In this document: piece by piece, positions 3,293 to 20,325 of the stretch
Layout of the letters: every line of letters begins with the position of its first letter
Numbering within the stretch: the first letter of the stretch is position 1
Source: a virus
Reading direction: 5' to 3' (one strand)
Virus record (IMG/VR): IMGVR_UViG_3300044612_000941
Span: 1-54,214 of that record
Length of the DNA: 54,214 bases
The notes under the pieces: model-generated
Told to the model about the DNA's origin: nothing
The model's input: only the letters and a program-made list of their open reading frames with translations
Database searches by the model: none
Translations under genes and position numbers: made by a program

Positions 3293-3295
3293 AAT

Positions 3296-4638: not shown

Positions 4639-4649
4639 ATCTACCTTAA

Positions 4650-5394: not shown

Positions 5395-5406
5395 TATTCT
5401 CCCAAA

Positions 5407-6376: not shown

Positions 6377-6588
6377 TATTTTCTCCCCCATTTAACTTTA
6401 TTCCAACCACGCTCATGGAAGTAATAAAGGATTGTCTTTGTAAATACCTCGAAACTTGCGATTGCACCAGCCGTAACTGGCTCTTTGGTTATTGCCCAAG
6501 ATATTACAAAAGTGTCTGCCGTGCCTATTATACGCCAAGTGATTGCTTTTAATGCTGATCTTTGTTTGGTTACATTCATGATGGCCAC
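6376..6588 (-). CDS. DUF2061 family membrane protein, copy 1
   Basis: The product (70 residues from GTG 6588, or 67 from ATG 6579, MNVTKQRSALKAITWRIIGT) has two hydrophobic helices and ends FHERGWNKVKWG. The family core is a TWR-x-x-GT-x-DT segment, then a second helix ending YY-FHER-W. A second copy lies at 8495-8695. DUF2061 proteins are predicted two-helix membrane proteins of unknown role. The 36 nt between this gene and the one upstream contain no obvious promoter. Confidence 0.7.
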   Translation of the reverse strand: MAIMNVTKQRSALKAITWRIIGTADTFVISWAITKEPVTAGAIASFEVFTKTILYYFHERGWNKVKWGRK

Positions 6589-6624
6589 TCAATGTTACTT
6601 GGCTTAGTAATGAAGTTCCAGACT

Positions 6625-7392
6625 TTAGATGCCCATCTCTTTACGTTTTTGCGTAGCCGATATAGCATGAATGTCTGCCCCCAAATCTACTTGTTCAATC
6701 TTATAACCTACATCACGACCATAAACAATGTTAGTAATGTTAGGTACCTTAATTACATTTGCTGTTGGCATATCTTTCTGAATAAAATTTCGAACCTGCT
6801 CAAAGTGTAAAGGATCTTTTTCAGTCATTCCAACTGTATGTCGAACTCCTATTACAACCTGTGTATTTCTCTTTGCTGCCTCATCAAAAAGAGCACGATG
6901 GCCTTCATGCCATGGTTGGTAGCGACCAAGAAGAAGAACGGTGTTTTCTTTCCAATCAAACATCCCAAACTTTCTGATAACTGTTATTGCTCGTGTTGCA
7001 ATAGCATCTTCGTGATCATCTCCAGTTACAACAATTCTATGGTCATAATGCTCTGGATCTTCCCAAAGTTTATTGGTGTCATCAAAGCGACCCTCTTTAA
7101 TTGTGTCTACCCAAACAACTACATCTGCTTCTCCAAATGCCTTGCGTGTTTCCTCTGTTGGACAAACAAAGTCTACAAGAACTGGCTTGTCCTGAATTTG
7201 CTCAAGAAGTCTTGCAAGTTCTCCCATGCGTCGTGCTTGTTCTACTCTGTCTTCTGGACTAAAGCCAAGATCTTTATTTAATCCAGCACGAACCTGATCT
7301 GCGTTGATATGAATTGCGTTGGTTCTGTCTCTGACAGCGTCTGCAATCGTTGTCTTGCCAGAGCCTGGAAGACCAAGGAATTGTATAATCAT
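6625..7392 (-). CDS. Bifunctional APS-kinase-like / HxGH nucleotidyltransferase fusion
   Basis: Residues 1-140 are a P-loop kinase with GLPGSGKTT at 7-15 and NADQVRAGLN at 30-39, closest in style to adenylylsulfate kinase (CysC). Residues 150-255 are a Rossmann-type nucleotidyltransferase with the H162-x-G-H165 motif in GRYQPWHEGH and the closing ISATQKR at 244-250, as in NMN or phosphopantetheine adenylyltransferases. The protein therefore probably phosphorylates a small molecule and joins a nucleotide to the same or a related one. NAD-related or sulfur-related chemistry are both possible; the substrate cannot be read from sequence. It shares an ATGA overlap with the oxygenase gene upstream. 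Confidence 0.75.
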   Translation of the reverse strand: MIIQFLGLPGSGKTTIADAVRDRTNAIHINADQVRAGLNKDLGFSPEDRVEQARRMGELARLLEQIQDKPVLVDFVCPTEETRKAFGEADVVVWVDTIKEGRFDDTNKLWEDPEHYDHRIVVTGDDHEDAIATRAITVIRKFGMFDWKENTVLLLGRYQPWHEGHRALFDEAAKRNTQVVIGVRHTVGMTEKDPLHFEQVRNFIQKDMPTANVIKVPNITNIVYGRDVGYKIEQVDLGADIHAISATQKRKEMGI

Positions 7393-7955
7393 TTGTTACT
7401 CTTTTCTATTGTTTGGTTTGGAACTATGTCAAAAATAAGATGAATTCTATCTTGTGAACCATTGTTCTCTACAGAATGAACCTTTGCATTATTAATTTCC
7501 CAACACTCTCCTTCTTGCATTCTAACGGTTTCTCCATTTACGGTAAACTCTGTAAGACCATCAGAAGATATAGGCAAGTGGTGTCTTCTTGAGTTTAGCA
7601 AGTAGTAGCCACTATCTGAATGCTTTGGTATTGATTTTCCATTAGGAAGTTTTACAAGTAGTGCTTGTCCAACTGTTCCATTATGTATTTTTTGAAAATC
7701 AAAAATTATTGGATCTATAAGAGTCTTTAACTCTGTATCATCTAAAACCTCAGAAACCTGATATGGTGTTTGACCATCCCAGCCTAAATCGGTTTTGTAC
7801 AAGAATATAGACTTTGTTTCTTTGTGTGTTGAAAACCTTTGTCTTGAAGTATCTGCATCCCATTCAGAAGAATATCTAGTAATATAGTTTTTGATTTGAG
7901 ATATGTCGTATTTTTTGTGCAGCAAAAGATTAAATGTTTCAGAAACTTTATTCAT
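7389..7955 (-). CDS. Aspartyl/asparaginyl beta-hydroxylase-like 2OG oxygenase
   Basis: The 188-residue protein carries H112-x-D114 in IPKHSDSGYY, distal H160 in NNAKVHSVENNG and R170 in SQDRIHLIFDI. This order and the WEINN-x-x-VH box match the Asp/Asn beta-hydroxylase branch of the 2OG-Fe(II) superfamily, distinct from the P4H-like copies elsewhere in the window. The substrate could be a protein side chain or a free amino acid or peptide. It is coupled by ATGA to the kinase-nucleotidyltransferase gene, which suggests a shared pathway. Confidence 0.8.
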   Translation of the reverse strand: MNKVSETFNLLLHKKYDISQIKNYITRYSSEWDADTSRQRFSTHKETKSIFLYKTDLGWDGQTPYQVSEVLDDTELKTLIDPIIFDFQKIHNGTVGQALLVKLPNGKSIPKHSDSGYYLLNSRRHHLPISSDGLTEFTVNGETVRMQEGECWEINNAKVHSVENNGSQDRIHLIFDIVPNQTIEKSNK

Positions 7956-7969
7956 TTGCTCTCCAGACT

Positions 7970-8197
7970 TTACTCTAGTTTTGATCGTTCGTCTAATATA
8001 GTTATTGCAAATTCCATCATTTTTTTGTAGCCGACAGAATTATCCATAATCTTATTATAATGATGTCCGCAAAACATTAAATCGCCTAGTAGGCCAGTGA
8101 CTTGTACAAGGGCCTCAGCATTACACCTATCGCATCTATCAAGAGGAGATAAAGTCCACTGCTTTGCTTCTACTACTTCATCAATCATCGTATTCAT
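7970..8197 (-). CDS. DUF7455-like zinc protein
   Basis: The chosen start is ATG 8197 (MNTMIDEVVE), with AAGGG 6 nt upstream and the stop of the previous gene 1 nt away. A frame-open ATG 12 codons earlier would overlap that gene. The 75-residue protein has C22-x2-C25 and C43-x2-H46 (RCDRCNAEALVQVT, MFCGHH), the metal-binding pattern of the actinobacterial DUF7455 family, which often sits near sigma-factor genes in host genomes. Role here is unknown; a transcription-related function is a guess. Confidence 0.7.
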   Translation of the reverse strand: MNTMIDEVVEAKQWTLSPLDRCDRCNAEALVQVTGLLGDLMFCGHHYNKIMDNSVGYKKMMEFAITILDERSKLE

Positions 8198-8198
8198 A

Positions 8199-8384
8199 TT
8201 ATACCCTTCGATTATCAGTGGAATAAAATCCACTACCGTTAAAAACTGCTCCTACATTAGAGTATACACGAGTTAGATCAGTATTGCAAGTATCACACTT
8301 GTAACCTGGGTCGTCCTCTGAAATTGATCGCTGTTTAATAAAGTTATCATTGCAAGTACTGCAATTATATTCATAAATAGCCAT
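8199..8384 (-). CDS. FmdB-like zinc ribbon protein
   Basis: This 61-residue protein begins MAIYEYNCSTCNDNFIKQRS and continues with KCDTCNTDLTRVYSN, giving two CxxC knuckles as in FmdB-family regulatory proteins. The ending GSGFYSTDNRR also fits that family. FmdB proteins are small zinc ribbons often annotated as regulators, with little direct evidence. It is one of several mini zinc proteins in this phage. Confidence 0.8.
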   Translation of the reverse strand: MAIYEYNCSTCNDNFIKQRSISEDDPGYKCDTCNTDLTRVYSNVGAVFNGSGFYSTDNRRV

Positions 8385-8387
8385 AGA

Positions 8388-8495
8388 TTATTTCTTCTTT
8401 TTTGCTTTTACTGTCCAGATTGGTGCATTGAGATTATCTCCACCCCATTCATAACCTAAAGCCTTTACAACAAATCTAATAATTTTGATACGCAT
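8388..8495 (-). CDS. Micro-protein of 35 aa
   Basis: ATG 8495 overlaps the TAA of the DUF2061 gene upstream (TAATG), and the TAA at 8388 is 3 nt before the next ATG. The product (MRIKIIRFVVKALGYEWGGD... ending VKAKKKK) is basic with a short hydrophobic start. No family is known to me. The tight fit between two genes, which would otherwise leave the only unexplained 100-nt gap here, is the evidence. Confidence 0.5.
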   Translation of the reverse strand: MRIKIIRFVVKALGYEWGGDNLNAPIWTVKAKKKK

Positions 8496-8695
8496 TATTT
8501 TACCTTACTTCCAAACTTAGCCCAAACTCTTTCATGTAAGAAGTATCCAAGTGCTTCCCAGCCAATATAAATAAGAGCGCCAAGACTTGCATACTCCCAT
8601 TCACCAGTAAATAAATATATTACTCCAGCAACTCCAACAAGGTGAAATGTTTCCCAACTTGCTGTCTTTAGTAGCGTTCTCTTTGTTGACTCCAT
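8495..8695 (-). CDS. DUF2061 family membrane protein, copy 2
   Basis: A 66-residue protein with two membrane helices, sharing with the gene at 6376-6588 the pattern TLLKTASWETFH at the start and LGYFLHERVW at the end (compare ILYYFHERGW). The hydrophobic segments fall at about residues 17-30 and 36-52. It follows the endolysin stop directly, so a lysis-associated role is possible but not shown. Confidence 0.7.
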   Translation of the reverse strand: MESTKRTLLKTASWETFHLVGVAGVIYLFTGEWEYASLGALIYIGWEALGYFLHERVWAKFGSKVK

Positions 8696-9316
8696 TTACT
8701 TTGCCTTCTTAACTGCTGGCTTCTTTGCAGGAGCCTTCTTAGCAACTGGTGCTGGGGATTCAGGTGTTACAGATGCTGCGATCTTATTTAGTAGTGGAGC
8801 ATTTTCTTCACCAGCATAAACTGGTCTACCCCAACCAACTACAGCATTAATTAACTTCTTCTTATTATTTTTTACATAACCACGAGTCTTCTCAACGCAC
8901 ATTCCACCATTGCGCTGATCTCCCTTTGCAGTTCCTGAAGTGTTTCCTTCAATAACTTGGATTGTTCCATCACCATTATTCTTAATGCAAAGACCAACAT
9001 GTGAAATACGATTTACACCATCATCTGGGAAATCAAAATAAATCCAGTCTCCTGCTTGTGGATCATCATTACGGGCGTCTGACCAACGACCTTCCTTTTT
9101 AAACTGATCTGATGCTGCTACTGTTGATGCAGACTTTGGAAACTTTGCTACGCCTGCAGTATGTGCACACCAAGAAACGAACGATTGGCACCATGGTTGG
9201 AAATTAACCTTCATCCATGCACCATACTTTGTTTCATTATCCTTTGGGCCTTCAATTGTGCCCACTTCTTTCTTTGCAACTTCAATGATTGCTTCTAAAC
9301 TACCTTTTACTGCCAT
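8696..9316 (-). CDS. CHAP-domain endolysin
   Basis: The true start is ATG 9316 (MAVKGSLEAI), with AGGAGG 7 nt upstream and a promoter at 9342-9370. An in-frame ATG at 9337 would be at or before the transcription start. The 206-residue protein is a CHAP amidase/endopeptidase with C43 in QPWCQSFVSWC, H106 in ISHVGL and E123 in VIEGNTSG, so it should cut peptidoglycan peptides or amide bonds. A Pro/Ala/Lys tail (APVAKKAPAKKPAVKKAK) probably binds the cell envelope; a similar tail ends the holin-like protein at 1179-1454. No signal peptide is present, so release needs a holin. Confidence 0.85.
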   Translation of the reverse strand: MAVKGSLEAIIEVAKKEVGTIEGPKDNETKYGAWMKVNFQPWCQSFVSWCAHTAGVAKFPKSASTVAASDQFKKEGRWSDARNDDPQAGDWIYFDFPDDGVNRISHVGLCIKNNGDGTIQVIEGNTSGTAKGDQRNGGMCVEKTRGYVKNNKKKLINAVVGWGRPVYAGEENAPLLNKIAASVTPESPAPVAKKAPAKKPAVKKAK

Positions 9317-9341
9317 GTTTGCCTCCTTTAAGGACATATCT

Positions 9342-9370
9342 ATTATACCAGTTTACCTACATATTGTAAA
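9342..9370 (-). promoter_or_regulatory. Promoter for the endolysin gene
   Basis: On the leftward strand TTTACA (9370-9365), a 17-nt spacer ending in TGG, and TATAAT (9347-9342) make a near-consensus sigma-70 promoter with extended -10. The predicted start is near 9335, giving a short leader before the ATG at 9316. The -35 lies inside the last codons of the carbamoyltransferase gene. Confidence 0.75.
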
Positions 9371-10783
9371 GTTATACTCTTTTTCCCATTTAATAATATC
9401 ATTTTCATCATTTAAAAGTGGCTGTCCTTTTATATTTAAACTTGTGTTTAATAATATAGGTACTCCAGTTTTTAGATAAAATTTATTTAATACCCTATAT
9501 AGGCCTGGATGTTCTTCTCTTGTAACTGTCTGGACTCTTGATGTACCATCTGCATGTACCACAGAAGGGATCTTGTCAGGCTGTAAGCATTTAACCGTAT
9601 ACTGCATGTAAGGGCTTTCAAAGTCCATATCAAACCATTTAGAGGCATGCTCTGCCATAACCACTGGAGCAAATGGTCTAAACAGTTCTCTCTGTTTAAT
9701 TAGATTAACTTTATCTTTAATTAACGGATCTCTTGGATCAGCAAGTATACTTCTATTTCCTAACGCTCTTGGGCCATACTCTGCTCTGCCTGATGCTACT
9801 GCTACGATTCCATCTTTTAATATACCGTCCACAATTTGCTGAACAGGATACTCTCCTCCAAGATCGTAGCCAAGATAAGGAGTCTTCCAATCAAGATGCT
9901 TTCCGTATAGGGCTGCTGCTGCACCCAAAGAACTACCAGCATCTCCAGGGTTAGGCATGATCCAAATCATATCAAAAATATTCCAGAGCAGTGTATTTGC
10001 GGATGAGTTTAGAGCACATCCACCCATGAATACCAAATTATTTTTGCCAGTTAAACTTTTTGCCATACGCATGAATTGATTTAGCCTTTGCTCGTATACC
10101 ATTTGTACTGCTGCTGCTATATCAAATTTATCTTGTTCTGAAATCCATCCCCAATCAGTAATTCCTTTATGAAAATTATATTTTTGTTTATCATAACTTG
10201 GAAAATATTCGTCTACTTTTTTATAATACTTTTGCCAGTCTCCATAGGCAGCCATACCCATCATAATATATTCTTCTTGGTTTGGCATTAAGCCTATTAG
10301 TTGTGTGAATGCTGAATAAAATAGTCCAAAACTTATTGGATAGTTTTGTTTATACTTTAGTTTAATCTTGTCGCCTTCACCAACCCAAATTGTTGAGGTA
10401 TTAAATTCTCCAATTGCATCTAAAACAACAATGCAGGAATCATTGAATGCGCTTGTATAGTAGCCAGCAGATGCGTGGGAGTAGTGATGTCCAAAGTTTT
10501 TTCTTGGCAAATCTCCAAGTTCTGTAGATTCAAACCAAGGTTTCCCTCCACCAAATCCACCCTTAGTCTTTACTCTAAGTTTCTTAAGTAAAGGCTTTTC
10601 ATAGTATGCAACTTGGTCTGGGTATCCATATTGTAATGCGTCTTTAATTAGTTCTTTATTGGTAAACCAGTCGTTTTTTTGTTTGCTATATCTTTCTGAA
10701 TGCCCTGCAAAAAGTATTCTTCCATCCTGTATCAAAGAAACAGATGCATCGTGAGTAGTCTCGTTTACTCCTAAGATTATCAT
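9353..10783 (-). CDS. NodU/TobZ-type carbamoyltransferase
   Basis: From ATG 10783 (MIILGVNETTHDASVSLIQD; ATGA overlap with the gene upstream) the protein has 476 residues. It shows H11 in THDAS, the HHYSHAS metal box at 99-105, D122 in VVLDAIGEF, and the C-terminal YrdC-like signatures EYGPRALGNRSILADPR and TSLNIKGQPL. These enzymes make carbamoyl-adenylate from carbamoyl phosphate and ATP and move the carbamoyl group to a hydroxyl, as on nodulation factors or tobramycin. Relatives usually run to about 570 residues; this one ends about 15 residues after the last conserved strand. A hydroxylated protein or sugar made by the neighbouring oxygenases and glycosyltransferase is a plausible acceptor. 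Carbamoylation of hydroxymethylated DNA is an alternative. Confidence 0.85.
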   Translation of the reverse strand: MIILGVNETTHDASVSLIQDGRILFAGHSERYSKQKNDWFTNKELIKDALQYGYPDQVAYYEKPLLKKLRVKTKGGFGGGKPWFESTELGDLPRKNFGHHYSHASAGYYTSAFNDSCIVVLDAIGEFNTSTIWVGEGDKIKLKYKQNYPISFGLFYSAFTQLIGLMPNQEEYIMMGMAAYGDWQKYYKKVDEYFPSYDKQKYNFHKGITDWGWISEQDKFDIAAAVQMVYEQRLNQFMRMAKSLTGKNNLVFMGGCALNSSANTLLWNIFDMIWIMPNPGDAGSSLGAAAALYGKHLDWKTPYLGYDLGGEYPVQQIVDGILKDGIVAVASGRAEYGPRALGNRSILADPRDPLIKDKVNLIKQRELFRPFAPVVMAEHASKWFDMDFESPYMQYTVKCLQPDKIPSVVHADGTSRVQTVTREEHPGLYRVLNKFYLKTGVPILLNTSLNIKGQPLLNDENDIIKWEKEYNFTICR

Positions 10784-11754
10784 TCTTTTCCAAACAGTTC
10801 TATGTACCAAGAGTACATCTTATTTGCGTAATATCTTTGTACTGCATGACCAGCATGTTTTTGATCTCTAGCCTGATTCTCATATTTAGATTTTGGTAAA
10901 TTGATCATTTTTTCTTCTGACTTGTAAAACATTTTTTCAGATAATTCTGTGTCAGATCTAAACTTTTTAAAGTCAAGCATTCTATAAAACGCATCTTCTG
11001 GACCCCAAGTGTTCCAAATTAATTCTATGTTGTTGGATATACAAAAAATTTCAAGCATTCTAAGAACTGAAACAGCCCTTAAAATTGATGCCTCTGCAGA
11101 CATAACTTGCTCAACCTTTCCAGAGCCAAGTTCTTCCTTAGTTACTGTTCTCATATTAACATGATCAATAAAATTAACATCATTAATTTCTTTTGCTCCA
11201 GGATACTCTAGCAATCCGTACCCAATTTGACGATCAATATCTGGTGCCAGCAAATATATTATATTTGGATTTCCAAAGGTATAACAATATTTAAAAATAT
11301 TATTAACTATTTTTTCTATTGAGCCTCCAGTAAAAGACAATGCTTGATACGGTCCAAGGTTTATATCTGGATGGTTGGATTTCATTAAATCATAAGTAAT
11401 TGCTGGCCAAGTTTCCTCGAAGGGAAGTCCTAGTCCAAATGTTTCAGAGCATCCAGCAAATAAGACATTAGTTTTGTCTTTATCTATTCTTTTAAACTCA
11501 TCAGATCTATGTCCAAAAGAATTGCTAACATATGAAATTCTTTTATCTTCAGTAACGGAACTATTCATTTTTGGACTATCGTCTAAAATAAACAATAATG
11601 GATCTTGCTTGTATGATTCCAACATTGCAACAGCGCAAGATTCAATATTGTAGGTCATTGCATTCAAAGAAATAATCCTAAGATCGATCTTGTCTAGACC
11701 AAATCTGTCATAATAATATTCTTTGTCGCTATACTTAAAAAACCTACCAGTCAT
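10780..11754 (-). CDS. SGNH/GDSL-like hydrolase, copy 1
   Basis: The 324-residue protein has the block I serine S103 in LFAGCSETFGLGLP, glycines 143-144 in SFTGGSIEKIV, and D297-x-x-H300 near the C-terminus, giving a likely Ser-Asp-His triad. Before block I both copies share a GHR-x-D-x-FK element (SNSFGHRSDEFK here). SGNH enzymes are esterases or acetyl-xylan/acyl hydrolases acting on lipids or sugar esters. A second copy lies at 16212-17081, so the pair brackets the modification cluster. It overlaps the carbamoyltransferase by 4 bp. No signal peptide is seen, so it acts in the cytoplasm or on virion parts. Confidence 0.7.
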   Translation of the reverse strand: MTGRFFKYSDKEYYYDRFGLDKIDLRIISLNAMTYNIESCAVAMLESYKQDPLLFILDDSPKMNSSVTEDKRISYVSNSFGHRSDEFKRIDKDKTNVLFAGCSETFGLGLPFEETWPAITYDLMKSNHPDINLGPYQALSFTGGSIEKIVNNIFKYCYTFGNPNIIYLLAPDIDRQIGYGLLEYPGAKEINDVNFIDHVNMRTVTKEELGSGKVEQVMSAEASILRAVSVLRMLEIFCISNNIELIWNTWGPEDAFYRMLDFKKFRSDTELSEKMFYKSEEKMINLPKSKYENQARDQKHAGHAVQRYYANKMYSWYIELFGKE

Positions 11755-11757
11755 AGA

Positions 11758-12429
11758 CTACTCTCTTCCGTCAGAAAGTATTGGCTTCTCCATGTTGTGA
11801 TACCAGTGTGGCAGTGAGTATCTTGTTCCAGATGTTATTTCTTTTACTTCATGAACATACAAGAAGTTTGATGGGAAAAACACAATGCTACCTGGATCTG
11901 GCTCAAGAATAATGTCTGAGTTTTGAAACTCAATCTCTCCACCTTCATAGTCATCATTAAAATATGATACTACTGATAAGACACGGCTACTAATTCCATG
12001 ATCTTGATGTGCTGGAAGAAATCCGCCAGACTCATATCTTAGCATATTTACACCAAACTCTCTTGACTTTATATTTGCATGAGCAAATGGGTACAGTTCT
12101 TTTGCGTAATGGTCGTATGCAATTTCAAGAGGATCGTAGATTCTTTTTGATAAATCAGACAACTCTTTGTAGTAATAGTCTTGTTCTGTTACAGTTCCAG
12201 GCTTTGGAATAAACTTTTGCCAACAAAATGTTTCCATAGTCCCAGCACTTTCGTTCTGCCATGGCATCCAGTCTGTTTGAACTGTAAATGCATCTCCATG
12301 CTCTTTATTAATAAATCTTTCATGCATAGACTTAATATCATCAATAATTAACTGAGGATTTTTTATTATGTTTGTGTAGTAAACTAGCCCAAGGTCAGCA
12401 ATTTCAAAATCAAACGGAAGTGAGTTCAT
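11758..12429 (-). CDS. 2OG-Fe(II) oxygenase, prolyl 4-hydroxylase-like
   Basis: Ligand residues are H141-x-D143 (LPAHQDHG), H193 (YVHEVKEIT) and R203 (GTRYSLPHWY) in a 223-residue protein. The DDYEGGEIEF box and GSIVFFPSNFLYVHEV are textbook for P4H-like phage oxygenases. GGGAGG lies 9 nt before ATG 12429, which overlaps the end of the next oxygenase gene by 20 bp. The two oxygenases, made side by side, could hydroxylate the same target at different sites or act as partners. Confidence 0.9.
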   Translation of the reverse strand: MNSLPFDFEIADLGLVYYTNIIKNPQLIIDDIKSMHERFINKEHGDAFTVQTDWMPWQNESAGTMETFCWQKFIPKPGTVTEQDYYYKELSDLSKRIYDPLEIAYDHYAKELYPFAHANIKSREFGVNMLRYESGGFLPAHQDHGISSRVLSVVSYFNDDYEGGEIEFQNSDIILEPDPGSIVFFPSNFLYVHEVKEITSGTRYSLPHWYHNMEKPILSDGRE

Positions 12430-13015
12430 GGAACTGAGCCTCCCATCTTAAGTTAGACTTTGGAACATCGATAAAGTCTGGATCAACATGTCCTGGCAAA
12501 CTTGTATGCATATATAATGCAGTATATCTGTCACCCCTTGTTACTGTTGTTATTCCATGAATGTATTCGCTTCCAGCCCCTGGAAAAAATACGGCAGAGT
12601 ATTGCTTTGGTTGATATACAAAGTTTTGATTTGGAAAATAAATCATTCCACCATCGTACTCAGATTCATGGTTTAAATACATGATTGTGCTCCACTCAAT
12701 AAATGGTTCAGGATCTTGAGCATCTATGTGTAGCCCACCCTTTGTTCCTTCTGTCCAATGCGAACCAAATCCTTTAAAAACATAAATTGGATTTACAAAA
12801 CCATTTAATTCTTTGTGAACATTGTTTGCTTTGTGTCCGTACTTTACCATTATGTCCATTACTGTTGGGTTATATGGCAAAGATGTTCCGCCATATCTTT
12901 CCTTGTAGTACTCTGGGTATGGAAGTTTGATACCATTTGGATCTTGCTGCTCACGTATCAGTGTTGCTGCATCCTCTGGGGATATAAAGTTTTCTATAAT
13001 GTGTATTCTATGCAT
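12410..13015 (-). CDS. 2OG-Fe(II) oxygenase
   Basis: A 201-residue protein with H96-x-D98 in GGLHIDAQD, distal H153 in EYIHGITTV and R163 in RGDRYTALYM. It has the YDGGMIYFP turn equivalent to EGGE in the neighbour but is otherwise diverged. It starts with MHRIHIIENFISPEDAATLI, the usual entry strand and helix of this fold. Its own promoter lies at 13032-13040 and GGAGGA precedes the ATG, so transcription of the oxygenase, SGNH and carbamoyltransferase block can begin here. Confidence 0.88.
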   Translation of the reverse strand: MHRIHIIENFISPEDAATLIREQQDPNGIKLPYPEYYKERYGGTSLPYNPTVMDIMVKYGHKANNVHKELNGFVNPIYVFKGFGSHWTEGTKGGLHIDAQDPEPFIEWSTIMYLNHESEYDGGMIYFPNQNFVYQPKQYSAVFFPGAGSEYIHGITTVTRGDRYTALYMHTSLPGHVDPDFIDVPKSNLRWEAQFHELTSV

Positions 13016-13031
13016 GTTTTCCTCCTTGTTA

Positions 13032-13040
13032 ATTATACCA
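13032..13040 (-). promoter_or_regulatory. Extended -10 promoter (TGGTATAAT)
   Basis: TGGTATAAT reads leftward from 13040 to 13032, 17 nt before the ATG at 13015, with AAGGAGGA between. No clear -35. It falls in the only gap between the glycosyltransferase stop (13041) and the oxygenase start, so it appears to restart transcription of the downstream block. Confidence 0.65.
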
Positions 13041-13901
13041 CTAGCGAATAGACCTTGTTATTCCAATAAATCTCTCGCCTTGTACCGCTTGGAAGGCTAA
13101 CTGATCATGGTTATAATTTGGGTCATTTTTTTCAAATGGCAACTCATATATTTTATCTATATCTAATCCGTGAAAATCTATAAAGTCTTTAATAGTTCTT
13201 TTATTATGGTTTGCTATATTGATAAGTTTTGAGTTGCCATGTTTAATTAATCTAATAAACTCATTATAGTTATGAATTAATGAGAATGGAGTGTATATTT
13301 TTTCAATCTGATTTTCTGATGCCAAAGAGTATAAATTTGAGCAATAAGAGTATATGTCTATTCCACTACAATACATAAGAATACTTACCGTTTCATTTTC
13401 TCCATGATATTTTAGATGTCTTGGATATTCAAACTGTTTTAACATTTCTGCTTTACCAAATGCAAAATCTCTATTAAATATATTAGAAATTTTTGGAGAC
13501 ATAGAGTGGTTAGATTCTATTTCAAAAGAAAAATTATCTTTTATCTTAAAATAATTATCCCCAATACCTGAAACAATTGCTTTTTTGTTATCTAAAAATC
13601 CTATCAACTCTGTATCCCAAGACTTTTTGACCATAGTACTATCACCAAGCAACAGAATGTAGTCAGATGCAGATGAGTGTATGGCATTAAGTTTCATATC
13701 GCATGGACTTTCATGAGAGTCCCAAATCACATGCCTATATCTAATATTTTTCCTATCTTCAAAAATATAATCTTTTGTCAAAGGACTCTGATCAATAACG
13801 GTAATAAAAATTTTATTGTCGGTATTTTCTATAAGGTTATCAATGACATCTTTTAATTGCTTTCCTTTATAAGAATAAATTATCGCTTCTATGTTAGTCA
13901 T
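13041..13901 (-). CDS. GT-A fold glycosyltransferase-like protein (GlcNAc-transferase type)
   Basis: The start is ATG 13901 (MTNIEAIIYSYKGKQL), overlapping the gene upstream by 8 bp. The 286-residue protein opens with the strand pattern of a GT-A domain, has a Cys-containing stretch at 64-80, then YILLLGDSTMVKKSWDTELI at 81-100. The last element resembles the LQ-x-DSH...WD-x-x-LI box of the PF11397 family, which includes the Dictyostelium enzyme that adds GlcNAc to hydroxyproline on Skp1. The usual DxD is replaced by GDS, so metal use is uncertain. It sits between oxygenases and DUF6065-like genes. The family call is by eye and tentative. Confidence 0.5.
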   Translation of the reverse strand: MTNIEAIIYSYKGKQLKDVIDNLIENTDNKIFITVIDQSPLTKDYIFEDRKNIRYRHVIWDSHESPCDMKLNAIHSSASDYILLLGDSTMVKKSWDTELIGFLDNKKAIVSGIGDNYFKIKDNFSFEIESNHSMSPKISNIFNRDFAFGKAEMLKQFEYPRHLKYHGENETVSILMYCSGIDIYSYCSNLYSLASENQIEKIYTPFSLIHNYNEFIRLIKHGNSKLINIANHNKRTIKDFIDFHGLDIDKIYELPFEKNDPNYNHDQLAFQAVQGERFIGITRSIR

Positions 13902-14661
13902 CTGAATACTCTTCTTTTGTATTGGTTTTAGAGCCAAACAATTTCTTTCTCCATGCTGTTTTTTTATAATATCCATACAGCATTGATCTTCTATTTTCTG
14001 CACGGAACTCATGCTTATCTAGTTCTTCTGGAGTTTCTATTACTTCAAGTTCCCAGTTATCTCTTTTAAATGGTATTATTTGAAATATTGGGGTTCCTTT
14101 TTTTATTGTGCCCCTAAAGTCTTTTTGTAGAAAGAAAGCGGTAAATACTGGAAGTCCCCAAATATCTGACTCAACGATACCTGACTGCGTATAAAAAGGT
14201 AGATCAAACCTGTTCATTGGGTGAGTAATTAGTACTGAATACCCTGGAGGAGTTTCATAATACCAGTTCATTCTCCATCCATAGTGCACAGGGTGGCAGT
14301 TATTTGGTATTGGCATATCGATGATTGGTCTTTTATCAACAAGCATTACATCCCCATCCCACCAAAGAATAGGTTTGCCAGTCTCTGGCTCAACGTCAAC
14401 ATGAAGGTCATCTTCTAAAACATATTGGTATCCCGCAGTTAAAGAATCTAAGAATGGCATACACATCTTAGTAGAAACCTGAGCGCCATCGGTGCCTATA
14501 TGATTTACAGGATTTAGATGTTCGTCACTATTCCAATAGTCATGTCTTGATAAAGATTTATACCATTCTGGAACATGTTTTGCTGATGGTTCTGGTGGAG
14601 ATAGCCTACCTTCATGATGCAAAAATGCTGGAGTAAAAGTAATTTTAAGCGGATCACTCAC
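13894..14661 (-). CDS. DUF6065-like protein, copy 1, GTG start
   Basis: Begins at GTG 14661 (GTGA overlap; AAGGA upstream). The 255-residue protein shares with the next gene upstream the series P-EP-x-PA/SAK-x-x-P-WYK, the box KMCMPFLDSLTAGYQYVLEDD, VLITHPMNR, SGIVESD, and the box KKGTPIFQIIPFKRDNWELE. This is the pattern of DUF6065, an uncharacterised family that I recall from bacteria and phages. The conserved PFKRD end suggests a binding or catalytic core. No signal peptide or membrane segment. Position next to the glycosyltransferase implies a role in the same modification pathway. Confidence 0.6.
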   Translation of the reverse strand: MSDPLKITFTPAFLHHEGRLSPPEPSAKHVPEWYKSLSRHDYWNSDEHLNPVNHIGTDGAQVSTKMCMPFLDSLTAGYQYVLEDDLHVDVEPETGKPILWWDGDVMLVDKRPIIDMPIPNNCHPVHYGWRMNWYYETPPGYSVLITHPMNRFDLPFYTQSGIVESDIWGLPVFTAFFLQKDFRGTIKKGTPIFQIIPFKRDNWELEVIETPEELDKHEFRAENRRSMLYGYYKKTAWRKKLFGSKTNTKEEYSDD

Positions 14662-15380
14662 TTATAATCCTTTTTTGACCTCATCTTATTCTTGTATCCA
14701 AATTTAAATGTGCTACGTAAAAACATTCTTTGTTTGGTTATAAGTTTATTTGCAATTATTGGATCAACTAGTTCCATCTCATAGTCATCTCTTTTAAATG
14801 GAATTACCTGTACTAGTGGCATTCCTTGCTTTAAAACACCCTTAAAATCTTTTTCTACTAGGAATGAGAAGTGCCCGTCAACAATAAACTTATCACTATC
14901 AACTACTCCACTAATTGCTTGAAGTGGAGATGGGTCTCTATGTATTGGGTTAGTAACTAGTACGCTGTGACCTTCTTCTGTTTCTAATGCCCAGAATGGC
15001 ATAATTCTAAATAGATCACGATGATATCTTGTTTCATCTATTGGATATGTGCTGTACTGCTCTCTTGAATGACTAGAGACAAGGTCATTTTTAATCATAC
15101 TTAGTGGGTTTGGAATACTCCATGTTATCTTTGCTGGATTTGTTGCATCGACATAAATATCACAAGGAAGACTTAATATATATCCTGCTGTGATTGCATC
15201 AAATATTGGCATACATCTTTTTACGGTGCTTGTTGATGTTCCCTGTGGAAGTGCCATCTCTTCATTTATATCTGAAGGCATTTTTTTGTACCAGTCTGGC
15301 ATACTTTTTGATGCTGGGATTGGCTCAGGGGTAAATGCTGGTGTTCTATCGTTGAATGGATAGAATTTAATTTTGCTCAT
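14658..15380 (-). CDS. DUF6065-like protein, copy 2
   Basis: A 240-residue paralogue of the protein at 13894-14661, with TPEPIPASKSMPDWYKKMP at residues 16-34, RCMPIFDAITAGYILSLPCD, SVLVTNPIHR, SGVVDSD and LKQGMPLVQVIPFKRDDYEM. It starts at ATG 15380 with AGGAA upstream and a TGGTATAAT promoter 25-30 nt before, inside the end of the third copy. The basic C-terminus (KNKMRSKKDYK) is specific to this copy. Confidence 0.6.
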   Translation of the reverse strand: MSKIKFYPFNDRTPAFTPEPIPASKSMPDWYKKMPSDINEEMALPQGTSTSTVKRCMPIFDAITAGYILSLPCDIYVDATNPAKITWSIPNPLSMIKNDLVSSHSREQYSTYPIDETRYHRDLFRIMPFWALETEEGHSVLVTNPIHRDPSPLQAISGVVDSDKFIVDGHFSFLVEKDFKGVLKQGMPLVQVIPFKRDDYEMELVDPIIANKLITKQRMFLRSTFKFGYKNKMRSKKDYK

Positions 15381-16038
15381 AAAAGTTCCTAACTCTCTCT
15401 ACTATTATACCATTAGCCCGAATAACCATGTTAAACATAGGAGACTGCCTTGGAATTTTCCCAAAACCATCTTTTATCATATGGCTTCCAGTATTTTTAA
15501 AGTGAAAGTTTACAAAAGGTGGTTCTATATACTGTGTCATTGGATCAATTCTTCTTGCTTCAAAAGATGTTGGATAGATGTAGAATGGAGAATTTTCTGC
15601 TTGCTCTATAGAAATGCTTGCATTCTCATCTATGATCCAAGGTATGTAGAATTTATAGGTCCCTGGAAAACATCCTTCTGGAAGAGAATCGCTTTCTTTA
15701 GCCTTATAATATTGTCTCATCCAAGGTCTATCAACATTATAAAACTCTTCTTCTTTTTGTTGCACAAGCATCTCAGCATGATTGCCTTGCTGCAAAACAA
15801 TCTTCTCTTGATCAACAGAAATTAGTTTTGGTTTAATATAAAGGTTTTCTACATATCTATTGATTGGCTTCAAGATACTGTGCATATATTTTCCAGCAAG
15901 AACATTTTGATAATTTAACCATTTATCTGGAAGCCTTGAGTCTTTAGAAATATCAATAAATGATGGATCTATTGTCTCATACCAGACCTCGTAGTTAAAG
16001 CCTGACTTTGCATTCATTTCTGGCAAGTCTTTATTCAT
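15367..16038 (-). CDS. Divergent DUF6065-like protein
   Basis: A 223-residue protein starting MNKDLPEMNAKSGFNYEVWY (AAAGGA upstream). The end, GFGKIPRQSPMFNMVIRANG, aligns in outline with KQGMP-x-x-Q-x-IPFKRD of the two paralogues downstream, and the LPDKWLNY segment resembles their PDWYK. It lacks the CMP-x-x-DA-x-TAGY box, so it is a distant copy at best. Having three related genes in a row suggests a substrate family or a hetero-oligomer. Confidence 0.5.
   Translation of the reverse strand: MNKDLPEMNAKSGFNYEVWYETIDPSFIDISKDSRLPDKWLNYQNVLAGKYMHSILKPINRYVENLYIKPKLISVDQEKIVLQQGNHAEMLVQQKEEEFYNVDRPWMRQYYKAKESDSLPEGCFPGTYKFYIPWIIDENASISIEQAENSPFYIYPTSFEARRIDPMTQYIEPPFVNFHFKNTGSHMIKDGFGKIPRQSPMFNMVIRANGIIVERVRNFYEQN
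15404..15412 (-). promoter_or_regulatory. Extended -10 promoter (TGGTATAAT)
   Basis: TGGTATAAT reads leftward from 15412 to 15404, within the last 50 nt of the gene at 15367-16038 and 24 nt before ATG 15380. It could also be chance coding sequence (NGIIVERV), but spacing to the next start matches the other sites. Confidence 0.5.
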
Positions 16039-16039
16039 T

Positions 16040-16222
16040 TTATTCCTTTATTTTTAAAACATACATACACGGATCTCCGCCATCTTCCCACTCTTGTGCT
16101 TCTTCTTCAGTCATGTATGGATCACCTGTATGCGTATTACAAAATGGCTCTGTTACCCATCCTCTTTCTATGCCATTACTTAGCCAGATATTAAACTCTA
16201 GTCCATCATTATCATCTATCAT
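16040..16222 (-). CDS. Conserved small phage protein, 60 aa
   Basis: MIDDNDGLEFNIWLSNGIER leads to FCNTHTGDPYMTEEEAQEWE and a DPCMYVLKI end. The C-NTH...DPC pattern is one I associate with small actinophage proteins, where Cys and His may bind a metal. It overlaps the SGNH gene upstream by 11 bp and ends 2 nt before the next ATG. Function unknown. Confidence 0.6.
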   Translation of the reverse strand: MIDDNDGLEFNIWLSNGIERGWVTEPFCNTHTGDPYMTEEEAQEWEDGGDPCMYVLKIKE

Positions 16223-17081
16223 TATTTATCCATTCTATAAAGAAGTCAGAGAACATAATGTTTGGAACAATACCTGGATGAGAGTTATCTGTTCCAATTC
16301 CAAATATATCTTGATGCTCAGAATAATCTGGGTCATCATATATTTTTTTAATTATTTCTTCTGGCTTAACTGTTTTGATTTTTTTAAATGTTTTTAGTCC
16401 TAGGGTTTCTCCAAAATTTCCAGTGTGGATATCCCAAGATGTAGAGTAAAGTTTTATTTTATGAGAAGCACAGTATGTTTCAAGAAGTGAATAGAACTGT
16501 TTAAATTTTACAAGTAATCTATATGCAATTTCTTTTGACTCTACTGTCAACTTCCAGTAGTCTTCGTCTCCATATTTTGCATGATTCTTAAGCATAAACA
16601 TATCGTTATCGTAATCATACAAAGTTTCTCTTGTAAAGTCTGCAAAAGAAATACAAATGATGTTTGGATTTCCAAACTCAGCACAATATTTTATTATATT
16701 TGTAACAAGTATTTCAACGCTTGCACCCATAATTCCAAGACAATGAAAATCTCCTTTATTTTCAAAATCTAAAGAATTATACACTATCCTAGACCATCTA
16801 AACCTATCAGGAAGGCCTTGTCCAAAAGTTGCTGAGCATCCAGCAAAAAGAATATTTGTTTTATTTTGGTCTAAAACTTTAAAATCATCGCATCTATGTC
16901 CATAATTATTAGTCTTATATGAAACTCTTTTGTCAATATTTTCTTCTGGATATGAGAGTGTGCTGACTTCATTGTTTTCAAATAATGATTTATCTGCCTT
17001 GTCTATTTTATAAGACATTTGTGAATGAGCATACAGGTTTTCATTTGAAAGTATTTCTACAATCATTGGTCTTTCAGTCAT
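16212..17081 (-). CDS. SGNH/GDSL-like hydrolase, copy 2
   Basis: The 289-residue paralogue of the protein at 10780-11754: S83 in LFAGCSATFGQGLP, a conserved NNYGHRCDDFK before it, MGASVEILVTNIIKYCAEFG in the middle, and D265-x-x-H268 (DNSHPG) at the end. The Ser-Asp-His set is therefore intact. Two copies with similar layout in one cluster could act on two acyl positions, or one could be a transferase rather than a hydrolase. It begins 2 nt after the proteasome-like gene stop, with a weak binding site. Confidence 0.7.
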   Translation of the reverse strand: MTERPMIVEILSNENLYAHSQMSYKIDKADKSLFENNEVSTLSYPEENIDKRVSYKTNNYGHRCDDFKVLDQNKTNILFAGCSATFGQGLPDRFRWSRIVYNSLDFENKGDFHCLGIMGASVEILVTNIIKYCAEFGNPNIICISFADFTRETLYDYDNDMFMLKNHAKYGDEDYWKLTVESKEIAYRLLVKFKQFYSLLETYCASHKIKLYSTSWDIHTGNFGETLGLKTFKKIKTVKPEEIIKKIYDDPDYSEHQDIFGIGTDNSHPGIVPNIMFSDFFIEWINNDR

Positions 17082-17082
17082 G

Positions 17083-17607
17083 CTACATGCTCACTATGTC
17101 AACTGGTCCCATACATGATGGGTTAAACTTTATAGCAGCATTAACTGCTTGCATTACTCTGTTCCTTGCATTTTTCTGCTTATCTGTTGCGTACAGAACC
17201 CCATAAGCATACTCTGCGCCAGAACCCATGGCAAGGTATGGAAGTGTGTACTTAGATAAAGACATGTCAGCAGAACTGTGCTCATATATTTGTCCACGCA
17301 CTGCAATAATCAAACCAAGATCTCCGTCTTTAGATGTGTCTACCCAAAACTCATTATAGAATTCACGAAGTTCTTTAACAAACCTTGTCTGCATAAACTT
17401 GTCTGTATCTTTAATATTTGGAGCAGTTGGCCTAAAGTTGTATCGGATTCTTTCTCCGTCCATTGCGCCAGCATACCCAATAAGGTATGGACCTATCTTC
17501 CAAACCTTTGGTGCTTCAAGTGCTAAAATAGTACCATCATCTGATGCTCCACGATCTCCAGCCATGTAAATCTTATCTTCATGGCGTACAACAGCAATAC
17601 AAGTCAT
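17083..17607 (-). CDS. Proteasome beta / HslV-like Ntn hydrolase
   Basis: From ATG 17607 (GGAGAGG upstream) the protein starts MTCIAVVRHEDKIYMAGDRG. After Met removal the catalytic set falls at T1, D17 and K33, the proteasome/HslV numbering, with LIGYAGAMDGER and MGSGAEYAYGVL as the usual glycine turns. The length, 174 residues, matches HslV. It should self-assemble and cleave peptides with the N-terminal threonine. No HslU-type ATPase is seen nearby, so it may use a host unfoldase or act alone. An open frame 24 codons longer exists, but a consensus promoter occupies that stretch. Roles in virion protein processing or host protein turnover are inference. Confidence 0.85.
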   Translation of the reverse strand: MTCIAVVRHEDKIYMAGDRGASDDGTILALEAPKVWKIGPYLIGYAGAMDGERIRYNFRPTAPNIKDTDKFMQTRFVKELREFYNEFWVDTSKDGDLGLIIAVRGQIYEHSSADMSLSKYTLPYLAMGSGAEYAYGVLYATDKQKNARNRVMQAVNAAIKFNPSCMGPVDIVSM

Positions 17608-17971: not shown

Positions 17972-18199
17972 TTATTTCTCCTTCCTTAGCGGGATTGTGA
18001 TTAGCCAAATAATTGTTGTTGCCATTACAGCAATACCAACAATGTCTCTTGCTGATCCCGTCAAAGTTAGCCATGCGATAAAGAAGCCCAGGAGGGTGAA
18101 TGCTTGTGCAATTAATTCCATACCTGCGTCTTTAAACCATTTAGTTAATCCCTTTAGCATTTTGCCTACCAGGTTTATGGCCTTATTGATTATTTTCAT
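17972..18199 (-). CDS. Two-helix membrane protein, holin-like
   Basis: This 75-residue protein has an amphipathic, Lys-rich N-terminal 25 residues (MKIINKAINLVGKMLKGLTK) followed by two membrane helices (FTLLGFFIAWLTLTG and IVGIAVMATTIIWLITI) and a basic tail. It overlaps the PA14 protein stop by 4 bp (ATGA). A holin or antiholin partner of the gene downstream is likely from order and size, not from a specific signature. Confidence 0.55.
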   Translation of the reverse strand: MKIINKAINLVGKMLKGLTKWFKDAGMELIAQAFTLLGFFIAWLTLTGSARDIVGIAVMATTIIWLITIPLRKEK

Positions 18200-20325
18200 T
18201 TGTTCCTCCTTATCATTGCCCCTGCAATTTGTGATACGATGATCACTGGGACAATTACTTCTTGCGCTTTCTCTCTCTGATCATCTGTCATATCCATACC
18301 TAATTCAGAGAAATTAGATAGGAGTTCTACTGGATCAACTTCAAATACTGCTCCAAGTGGATCTGCTAAGAATGCTTCTGTTTGTACTTCTGTTACGGCA
18401 TCTGCTAATGTAAATGGCATTGGGGTATCTCCTGCATCCCCTGCTCTTTCTGCAAACTCAACAAATGCTTCTGCAAGTTCTGGATTAGACTTCATCTGCT
18501 CAGCAATCTCTGCAACTTCTGAAGGCTTAATACCAAGATCTTCTGCAACCTCTTGCTTTGCTTCTTGCGTTAATGCTTTAAGTGTTTGACTAACCGCTGT
18601 GATTTGTTCAGCAGAAAGAACAACCAACTTATTATCCTTGCTTGTAAGGTTAGCAATAACTCCAGATAAATCTTCTTCTGTTCCAGTTCCCTTTTCAGGA
18701 ACCAGGGCTGCTAATACCTCATCAGTAATTTCTACATCTGGTTCATTCCAAGGGTTCTCTTCTGGTTCTGGCTCTGGCCCAGGTTCTGGTGAAGGTTCTG
18801 GAGCAGGCTCTTCAGTTGTCTCTGGAATTGGTTCTGGAGAAGGCTCAGGGGTTGGGGGTTCCTCTGGGGTAGGCTCAGGTGTAGGCTCCTCTGTAGGGTC
18901 TACTGTAGGCTCTGGAGAAGGCTCTGGGGTTGGAGGCTCTTCTGCTGTAGGTTCTGGACTTGGTTCTGGTGTTGGTGGTTCCTCAGCAGTTGGTTCTGGG
19001 GAAGGCTCTGGGGTTGGTTCTGGGTCTGGACTAGCCTCTGGTGTTGGTTCAGGACTTGGCTCTGGGGTAGGCTGATTGTTTGCAGCGTTGGCTGCTGCCT
19101 GTGCAATAGCAGACTGAATTTCTCTTTGTAATTGTTCGTCATAGTAACGCCATGCGTTATCAATTGCGCTGTTAACATTACTAATTGCTTGATTGTATGC
19201 GCTGATTGCATTATTTTTATTTTGGAGTGCCGTTGCAACATTTAAAACTGAGTTGTTATACTCATTTGTTTTATTAGTTAGTGTTTGATTGTAACCATTT
19301 AATGTTGAAACTGCTTGATTATAAACATTTAGTTTGTCATTATATACATCTTGTGCTGAGTTCTTTGCAGCAAGAGCGTTGTTGTAGGCGTTTGTTTGTT
19401 CTTGGGTTGCTCCAGATCCATGAGAAAATGTATTAAGATTGCAACTAAAGTCTTGTCCCCATACTCTTGGGTTGCCAGCATAGTCACAACCTGCACTAGT
19501 CCACCCTCCAGGGATTCCCCAGCCAAGAAGGTAGGATCCAGGGCCTCCTCCGTTGTACCACCATATTTCTACATCAAAAACCTTATCACTTGTTACATCA
19601 TATACTGGAGAGTAATCACTCCAAATTGTTCCTTGCTCTACCCAGTTATCAACAGCAAGTTGACCATCAATATACATTCTAAAACCATCATCTGTATAAC
19701 CAGCAAAGTATGCTTGCGTAAACCATGATGGAACAGTTATCTGTCCAGTAAATTTAACTATAAAGTTTTCATATCTATTACCACAAACTGGGCGGGTCAT
19801 ATAGTTTCCATTTAGCGTTCCACTACATAAGAATTCATCTGTGGCTGCAAGTCCATTAACTCTAATTAGACTATAAACATCGTATGCCAAACCAGCAGAA
19901 CCAGCACTGTCTAATGCTTGCTGAGCGTTTGAAAGATTAATGTTTGCTGCTCCAAGGGCATCGTAGGCATCATTTTTATTGTCTAAAGCAGTGGCTACTG
20001 TTACTGTTTGTCCGTCTACTGCTGATTGGGCTAAGTCTTTTTCTTCAAGTGCCGTGGCTTCTGCGTCAATGGCATCATCGTATAGGTCAGAGGTTTGAGA
20101 CTGGACTGATTGTGCAGATACTGCAAGGTCATACTTGTCTTCTGCCTGTTCAATTAAGGATATGAATTCATCCTTGTATCCAAGGTCGTCGATGCTATCG
20201 TTAAGATCTTGTATTTCTTGTGCTGCAACTGTGAGGGGGTCATCAGAGTGGGCACCTTCTGGGGACATAAGAAGCCAGCCAAATGCTAATAGTGTGGCTG
20301 CTAGTATGCGTATTAGTCTTTTAAT
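18196..20325 (-). CDS. Secreted PA14-like, Pro-rich surface protein, apparent ATT start
   Basis: The frame is blocked by TAA just before ATT 20325. Starting there gives KRLIRILAATLLAFGWLLM and a cleavage site near GAHS, a complete signal peptide, with a GGGGG-rich ribosome site 8 nt upstream. The first in-frame ATG (20268) lies after the hydrophobic core and has no binding site. The 709-residue protein then has Ala/Asp/Asn-rich coiled coil (30-140), a PA14-like beta domain (about 165-270: YTDDGFRMYIDGQ, WWYNGGGPGSY), a second coiled coil (300-400), about 110 residues of PEPSPEPT repeats (418-527), an acidic helical part and a C-terminal hydrophobic helix with RRNK. It is probably exported and anchored. 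PA14 domains often bind carbohydrate. Confidence 0.75.
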   Translation of the reverse strand: MKRLIRILAATLLAFGWLLMSPEGAHSDDPLTVAAQEIQDLNDSIDDLGYKDEFISLIEQAEDKYDLAVSAQSVQSQTSDLYDDAIDAEATALEEKDLAQSAVDGQTVTVATALDNKNDAYDALGAANINLSNAQQALDSAGSAGLAYDVYSLIRVNGLAATDEFLCSGTLNGNYMTRPVCGNRYENFIVKFTGQITVPSWFTQAYFAGYTDDGFRMYIDGQLAVDNWVEQGTIWSDYSPVYDVTSDKVFDVEIWWYNGGGPGSYLLGWGIPGGWTSAGCDYAGNPRVWGQDFSCNLNTFSHGSGATQEQTNAYNNALAAKNSAQDVYNDKLNVYNQAVSTLNGYNQTLTNKTNEYNNSVLNVATALQNKNNAISAYNQAISNVNSAIDNAWRYYDEQLQREIQSAIAQAAANAANNQPTPEPSPEPTPEASPDPEPTPEPSPEPTAEEPPTPEPSPEPTAEEPPTPEPSPEPTVDPTEEPTPEPTPEEPPTPEPSPEPIPETTEEPAPEPSPEPGPEPEPEENPWNEPDVEITDEVLAALVPEKGTGTEEDLSGVIANLTSKDNKLVVLSAEQITAVSQTLKALTQEAKQEVAEDLGIKPSEVAEIAEQMKSNPELAEAFVEFAERAGDAGDTPMPFTLADAVTEVQTEAFLADPLGAVFEVDPVELLSNFSELGMDMTDDQREKAQEVIVPVIIVSQIAGAMIRRNK
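18747..19074 (-). repeat. Degenerate PEPSPEPT-coding repeat
   Basis: About 330 bp of short degenerate repeats encode Pro-Glu-Pro-Ser/Thr units, including two copies of TAEEPPTPEPSPEP in a row. Such a run is rigid and extended, suited to spanning a cell wall. Slippage in the repeat could vary its length between strains. Confidence 0.8.

Follow-up and report, generated by a model that had tools for sequence, protein, structure and literature searches.

What would a phage gain from carrying two putative oxygenases, a glycosyltransferase-like protein and a carbamoyltransferase in a single run of genes? The question is raised by the leftward gene block at positions 9,353-17,081 of the virus record IMGVR_UViG_3300044612_000941, the whole of which (54,214 bases) we call the window. 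The block, hereafter the cassette, encodes an O-carbamoyltransferase (CARB), two SGNH/GDSL-like proteins (SGNH1 and SGNH2), two putative 2-oxoglutarate-Fe(II) (2OG) oxygenases (2OGa and 2OGb), a glycosyltransferase-like protein (GT) and three proteins termed D1, D2 and D3. A first-pass annotation, made from the sequence, had proposed that these genes hydroxylate proline, add a sugar and apply carbamoyl and acyl groups on a virion or surface protein. Our analysis confirms the observation, partly supports its interpretation as a hydroxylation-glycosylation-carbamoylation pathway and finds the chemistry plausible. Many uncultured tailed phages carry this compact gene set. We tentatively favour, at somewhat less than even confidence, the reading that it is translationally coupled, lies among late genes, is gained or lost as a block and would decorate a protein, the likeliest targets being virion (tail) proteins and proteins of the host surface.

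Gene order, co-occurrence and selection

Five adjacent gene pairs of the cassette overlap, by 4 to 20 bases each. Searches with the cassette proteins retrieved 83 loci (one search contributing the best 80 of 131 matches), of which 81 were scanned after removal of two duplicates; order was counted over untruncated cases. D1 is followed by D2 in 78 of 78 cases and D3 by GT in 73 of 73, while D2 is followed by D3 in 76 of 79, the exceptions (L080-L082) lacking D1, D3 and GT and retaining a 2OG gene. GT and 2OGa lie within 600 bases of each other in 69 of 70 cases. 2OGb is the next gene after 2OGa in 43 of 65 cases and lies no more than 6.5 kb after it in 58 of 62. CARB is found in 60 loci, the remaining 21 having less than 7 kb after D2; it precedes D1 in 13 loci, and 2OGb comes after CARB in six. 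D1-D2-D3-GT-2OGa is a conserved unit with its order kept, and 2OGb and CARB are close but movable. All seven core families occur together in 56 of the 81 loci, which carry zero, one, two or three SGNH genes in 14, 18, 19 and 5 instances, respectively, counted over the whole locus. At 85% identity, 80 D2 sequences form 25 groups and 84 GT sequences form 38.

Because these 81 loci were picked via cassette genes, we drew an independent set via the terminase (the best 80 of at least 599 matches, all at least 83% identical), 19 members of which have at least 8 kb after that gene. D1, D2/D3 and GT are all present in five of the 19 and all absent in 14, several of which carry other 2OG genes. Likewise, strong matches to D2/D3 (at least 240 bits), GT (at least 160) and 2OGa (at least 220) fall in the same 16 of 21 whole records, 14 of these records having come from D2 searches and seven from the terminase, the latter partly chosen for lacking the block. 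The other five records lack the block; distant DUF6065 relatives are seen in two of them (G013 and G016), and other 2OG genes in G015 and G016. The gene set thus co-occurs in relatives as a conserved unit, barring a few partial sets (L080-L082 and L128).

Purifying selection acts on the cassette genes. When the window is compared with the nearest of the long relatives found, a 111.9 kb contig (L002), the ratio of nonsynonymous to synonymous substitution rates (dN/dS), a rough measure here since dS is high in many pairs, is 0.01 for D2, 0.02 for D3, 0.04 for CARB and for 2OGb, 0.05 for D1, 0.07 for 2OGa, 0.12-0.13 for SGNH2 and GT and 0.17 for SGNH1; five further GT pairs give 0.06-0.21.

Protein families and predicted folds

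GT matches PF11397 above the cut-off of a hidden Markov model (HMM) search (25.7 versus 21 bits), which bears out a resemblance first noticed by eye, and 20 of 39 aligned GT members, second copies included, match this family at E 0.01 or better. Its predicted model (mean predicted local distance difference test score, pLDDT, 88.9) retrieves polypeptide N-acetylgalactosamine (GalNAc)-transferases first in Foldseek (E 1.2e-11). The same enzymes occupy ranks 1-29 in VIA-align (Z 18.4-21.9), ahead of heparosan synthase (17.0), and the GT-A domains superpose over 239 residues with a root-mean-square deviation (rmsd) of 2.6 (Z 21.9) at about 10% identity. The family of these transferases, GT27, carries a DxH motif and a lectin domain, whereas the 286 residues of GT contain neither. 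A profile of GT sequences hits one sequence in the PDB, GalT1 (5hea, E 2.8e-4), and GT itself has no match at E 0.01 among 50,697 phage records. In its predicted model, GT has a GT-A fold that is nearest to protein O-glycosyltransferases. The first-pass annotation had held that a non-glycosyltransferase fold for this protein, or independent occurrence of the genes in relatives, would speak against its proposal; the modelled GT-A fold and the conserved unit described above mean that neither was found.

The two oxygenases, first described as lying 0.03 and 0.6 kb from GT, are about 25 and 611 bases away, and both can be assigned as such. 2OGb matches PF13640 (59.8 bits, cut-off 27), its triad H141, D143 and H193 is invariant in 26 rows and its 2OG-binding Arg nearly so. 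2OGa has no Pfam match; it matches PHROG 61, 2297 and 274, and the residues H96, D98, H153 and R163, which correspond to the HxD...H triad and the 2OG-binding Arg, are invariant in 22 of 22 aligned rows. The best PDB matches of the 2OGb profile are the bacterial prolyl 4-hydroxylases (P4Hs) 3itq and 5hv0 (E 1.2e-8), followed by prolyl 3-hydroxylase 1, PKHD hydroxylases, LH3 and PHD2, with Tet-like enzymes ranking later (E 0.0015); that of 2OGa matches prolyl 3-hydroxylase 1 (E 2.8e-7) and P4H (E 0.0014). By these profile comparisons the closest solved relatives of both proteins are prolyl hydroxylases, which favours, short of proof, action on a protein or an amino acid.

Additional 2OG genes occur elsewhere in these phage records. 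Each of the eight relatives fetched has one or two such genes flanked by a class II ribonucleotide reductase (RNR) gene and a large tail-fibre-like gene whose Pfam match is limited to a weak Laminin_G hit. These genes belong to a conserved module (L339-L346; compare L335 and L336) with an Mtd-like tail fibre, an FN3-like protein, unassigned proteins of about 220 residues, the class II RNR, the one or two oxygenases and the large fibre-like protein. In a tail-fibre region of G016 (L334, positions 2993-9672), two DUF6065 relatives are interspersed with seven P4H-like 2OG open reading frames (ORFs); a short-chain dehydrogenase and a class II RNR come next.

CARB, annotated as a carbamoyltransferase from the outset, contains PF16861 (182 bits) and PF02543 (112 bits), both above cut-off, and matches PHROG 1601 at E 2.5e-104. 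By eye, the ATG at 10783, which overlaps the stop of the preceding gene, is preferable to the TTG at 10810 as its start. Its relatives with solved structures include NovN, GdmN and TobZ; the motif that reads GRAEYGPRALGNRS in CARB is GRSEFGPRALGNRS in NovN and GRSEFGPRALGHRS in GdmN. CARB shares both Pfam domains with NodU, TobZ and NovN, and GRxE(Y/F)GPRALGNRS is present as in NovN, whereas CARB is shorter (476 residues) and scores 158 bits against an NCBIfam equivalog cut-off of 1000 for NodU proper.

The two SGNH proteins of the window match no SGNH model in Pfam or NCBIfam (one has a NeuB match below cut-off) and are recognisable solely at the family level, through putative catalytic residues and profile similarity. 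The family alignment shows Ser103 and His300 unchanged in all 37 rows, and the family profile picks up 11 PDB sequences with E values of 1 or lower, every one a GDSL esterase or thioesterase I and one of them below 0.01 (4rw0, 3.5e-4), in agreement with the initial naming of the two proteins.

Of the three DUF6065-like proteins originally proposed, D2 and D3 hold up, with matches to PHROG 7084 at E 6.9e-43 and 1.2e-30, and D1 is doubtful. DUF6065 itself (PF19541, cut-off 26.6 bits) scores below threshold with D3 (17.6) and D2 (12.5) and gives nothing with D1; 18 of 45 aligned D2/D3 relatives match it at E 0.01 or better. D1 has no match in Pfam, PHROGs, NCBIfam or PDB sequences. Its hhalign probability is 48 with the D2/D3 profile and just 7 with a broader DUF6065 profile, an unrelated control profile reaching up to 17.5, and D1 is perhaps a distant relative of D2 and D3. 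Bacteria, chiefly Alphaproteobacteria, have DUF6065 relatives as well (L168-L247), with none of the other cassette families nearby in 80 of 80 stretches (the best 80 of 163 matches, with up to 10 kb on either side and some shorter). A literature search for DUF6065 returned no paper.

The D2 model (pLDDT 87.7) resembles dUTPases, which fill all 50 VIA-align matches listed (Z 8.5-9.9, where models without a clear match usually score 7 to 8). The top match has Z 9.9 and an rmsd of 2.4 over 119 residues, and the best Foldseek E value against a dUTPase is 1.9e-3. The D2/D3 and dUTPase motifs agree in register, by eye and in hhalign. Homology between DUF6065 and dUTPases at the level of sequence was considered and rejected: an hhalign score of 18.5, obtained with a dUTPase profile of seven sequences picked by a motif rule from 11 loci, compares with 13.6, 16.9 and 20.1 for three unrelated profiles. 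The dUTPase family PF00692 is found in none of 21 records at E 0.1 and aligns to D2/D3 with an hhalign probability of 0.8, and a D2/D3 profile search of the PDB finds no dUTPase at E 10.

Proposed activity and competing readings

In the scheme that we infer, including its substrate, residue, order of steps and catalysis by GT, the two P4H-like oxygenases would hydroxylate one or more side chains. GT, a probable divergent cousin of the polypeptide GalNAc-transferases and of the Skp1 hydroxyproline N-acetylglucosamine (GlcNAc)-transferase family, would then place, or help place, a sugar on the new hydroxyl, and CARB would cap the sugar or the side-chain hydroxyl with a carbamoyl group. The SGNH proteins, variable in number, would add or trim acyl groups, and D1-D3 could form a scaffold or binding assembly. 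We hypothesize that proline is the hydroxylated residue and a virion protein the target. The cassette is a compact, clonable system of seven core genes, headed by a family without known function; five of these genes keep a fixed order in many phage groups. Should it decorate virion proteins, phage glycobiology would come to include hydroxylation-dependent, carbamoylated linkages, and what the DUF6065 relatives do could be put to the test.

The nearest parallel is the Skp1 pathway, in which, according to the portions of the reports consulted (PMC3515798, PMC11570480), prolyl hydroxylation by P4H is coupled to GlcNAc addition by Gnt1. The cassette shares with it a P4H-like 2OG oxygenase adjoining a PF11397-related GT-A protein, but has two oxygenases, a lost DxH motif and a partial HMM match; it adds a carbamoyltransferase, SGNH proteins and DUF6065 relatives. 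A bolder version, which we consider improbable in its full form, would have the phage perform hydroxylation-dependent O-glycosylation of its own late proteins in parallel to Skp1, through a GT-A protein devoid of its metal motif and a dUTPase-like D1-D2-D3 assembly, with carbamoyl and acyl caps as a changeable surface coat. We know of no oxygenase or carbamoyltransferase partner in mycobacteriophage virion glycosylation. Phage-encoded glycosyltransferases have been proposed to decorate a mycobacteriophage capsid protein (excerpts of PMC11256854, complemented by general background), and two phages of freshwater Actinobacteriota carry glycosyltransferases, the excerpts of that report making no mention of carbamoyl groups, hydroxylases or oxygenases (PMC10202952). 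A literature search for the combination of phage, carbamoyltransferase and hydroxylase returned no paper.

Several observations weigh against protein decoration by this route. Membership of the 2OG superfamily leaves the substrate unfixed, and the match of GT to PF11397 is limited to residues 125-185. DxH is the defining metal-binding motif of PF11397/GT60, which we take to be the hydroxyproline GlcNAc-transferase family. It is kept in none of 34 cassette GT representatives, where SDN (12), TPG (6), SDD (4) and others replace it (in a MAFFT alignment that is gap-free at these columns, a one-residue shift being possible), and is present in all five second GT copies. Its loss from the cassette GTs makes the catalysis required by the Skp1 analogy uncertain, and we therefore do not place GT in GT60 as an enzyme of known chemistry. 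The second copies, with a canonical DxH (DAH), lie downstream of the carbamoyltransferase gene (L018, L031, L039, L044 and L075) and could perform the catalytic step seemingly missing from the cassette GT. DUF6065 has no assigned role, the D2 model resembles a nucleotide enzyme, and elsewhere DUF6065 sits near RNR or thymidylate synthase genes. In addition, one locus (L128) has CARB and two SGNH genes with no D1, D2/D3 or GT within 6.5 kb after the terminase.

The remaining point against it concerns the substrate. ORFs with (T/S/E)P-rich stretches occur in 35 of the 81 cassette loci, with repeat letters that vary by locus, and a proline-rich ORF follows the terminase in 18 of the 19 terminase-selected relatives with enough sequence (L098-L165). 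It is present in five of five loci with the cassette and in 13 of 14 without it; being common either way, it provides no link to the cassette, and the proline-rich PA14 protein was dropped as a candidate substrate. A collagen-like tail fibre was also set aside, as its Pfam Collagen match is weak (E 0.0019, 18.3 versus 27.2 bits) and its sequence consists of GAF repeats. Of the pathway first proposed, then, the likeness to PF11397, the P4H-like relatives and the gene unit stand, whereas the DxH motif is lost and the proline-rich candidate fails its control.

The strongest rival, which we rate as possible though unlikely, is that the cassette assembles or modifies a surface glycan, a glycolipid or a small glycosylated metabolite, O-carbamoylated and acylated as nodulation factors are, so that the infected cell or the virion escapes rival phages; the oxygenases would then act on a lipid, a sugar or a free amino acid. 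The CARB relatives with solved structures transfer carbamoyl to antibiotics and their sugars, SGNH proteins often serve in O-acyl tailoring, and their number varies from zero to three per seven-family locus. GT and SGNH2 have the highest dN of the cassette (0.107 and 0.137), as surface variation predicts. Against this, the block of the window has a single GT, whose modelled fold is nearest to protein O-glycosyltransferases, and two P4H-like oxygenases are, to our knowledge, atypical of glycan operons. Moreover, the ten block proteins scanned include no sugar-nucleotide or polymerase gene, sugar-nucleotide pathway genes not having been searched for.

Modification of nucleotides or phage DNA against restriction, in which a base would be hydroxylated and then carbamoylated or glycosylated with the DUF6065 relatives as dUTPase-like nucleotide-binding subunits, appears improbable. 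Its precedent is a phage carbamoyltransferase of the same family, with both Pfam domains, that was identified by MetaGPA, acts on 5-hydroxymethylcytosine (5hmC) to make 5-carbamoyloxymethylcytosine and co-occurs with thymidylate-synthase homologues (PMC8670742, from the excerpts consulted). The dUTPase-like fold of the D2 model would fit, as would genomic context: two haloviruses have a single DUF6065 gene near tail genes together with an RNR (HRTV-16) or a thymidylate synthase (HSTV-2) gene, and in two of the whole records (G010 and G014) some 60 kb separate D2 from the other cassette genes and it stands between tail-fibre-like genes and a class II RNR. All 13 records searched also have sub-threshold Tet_JBP matches (best E 3.3e-6, 22.5 versus 34.9 bits). 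Yet CARB shares 24% identity with the 5hmC enzyme and has a different motif, the cassette is flanked by peptidase and endolysin genes, and GT resembles protein glycosyltransferases. No TET/JBP (PF12851) match exceeds the cut-off in the 13 records (2OGb of the window scores 17.2 versus 34.9 bits), no thymidylate synthase homologue occurs in 13 records, which are possibly fragments, and no C5 methyltransferase occurs in 21, other base-modifying families not having been searched for. The lack of these three genes disfavours DNA modification, with the proviso that fragments may hide genes.

Slightly less credible still is that GT is a non-catalytic subunit and that carbamoyl is added directly to the new hydroxyl, giving hydroxylation and carbamoylation without glycosylation. 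The contrast in DxH between cassette GTs and second copies points this way, the gene is nonetheless under purifying selection in all six pairs compared, and the 5hmC system offers a precedent for placing carbamoyl on a hydroxyl outside a sugar. However, an acidic G-E-(N/E)-E stretch is retained in nearly all cassette GTs, 27 of 34 have an Asp within the three motif columns, and certain GT-A enzymes function without a metal.

Finally, a chance assembly of unrelated auxiliary genes is hardly credible: several of the genes come from families common as phage auxiliary genes, other 2OG genes lie elsewhere in the same records and partial sets exist, but synteny already contradicts chance, since the D1-D2-D3-GT-2OGa order is fixed across the 25 groups that D2 alone spans and the cassette genes are jointly present or absent.

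Flanking genes and other features of the window

The window encodes a terminase, a DNA polymerase, a primase, a helicase and tail proteins. Every ORF named in the first-pass annotation lies on the minus strand at the coordinates given there; these and other features are collected in Table 1.

Table 1. Positions and assignments of the cassette genes, their flanks and further features of the window.
Feature	Coordinates	Strand	Assignment	Support
CARB	9353..10783	-	O-carbamoyltransferase, NodU/TobZ/NovN superfamily	PF02543, PF16861, PHROG 1601
SGNH2	10780..11754	-	SGNH/GDSL-like hydrolase or acyltransferase, second copy	invariant Ser103/His300; profile matches to GDSL enzymes
2OGb	11758..12429	-	2OG-Fe(II) oxygenase, P4H-like	PF13640, 59.8 bits
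2OGa	12410..13015	-	2OG-Fe(II) oxygenase	PHROG 61/2297, HxD...H...R
GT	13041..13901	-	GT-A-fold glycosyltransferase-like (PF11397), GDS replacing DxH	HMM and predicted model
D3	13894..14661	-	DUF6065-related	PHROG 7084
D2	14658..15380	-	DUF6065-related, dUTPase-like fold in model	PHROG 7084 and predicted model
D1	15367..16038	-	conserved cassette protein, no family found; perhaps distant D2/D3 relative	synteny, hhalign
60-codon ORF	16040-16222		between first SGNH gene and D1	
SGNH1	16212..17081	-	SGNH/GDSL-like, first copy; accessory, varies among relatives, present in some loci	
Peptidase	17083..17607	-	HslV/proteasome-like, cassette flank; start picked by eye	PHROG 1040, E 2.2e-23
Endolysin	8696..9337	-	cassette flank	PHROG 21357, E 1.5e-24
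PA14 protein	18196..20268	-	PA14-domain protein with (T/S/E)P-rich repeats	PF07691
Hydroxylase-like ORF	7389-7955		Asp/Asn-hydroxylase-like, outside the 9353-17081 block	
Oxygenase	420-1139		outside the 9353-17081 block	PHROG 61

At 6625-7392 lies a kinase (PHROG 10255) whose second half is cytidylyltransferase-like; it has relatives in 27 of the 81 loci. A 14 kb contig (L083) is identical to the window in the genes compared.

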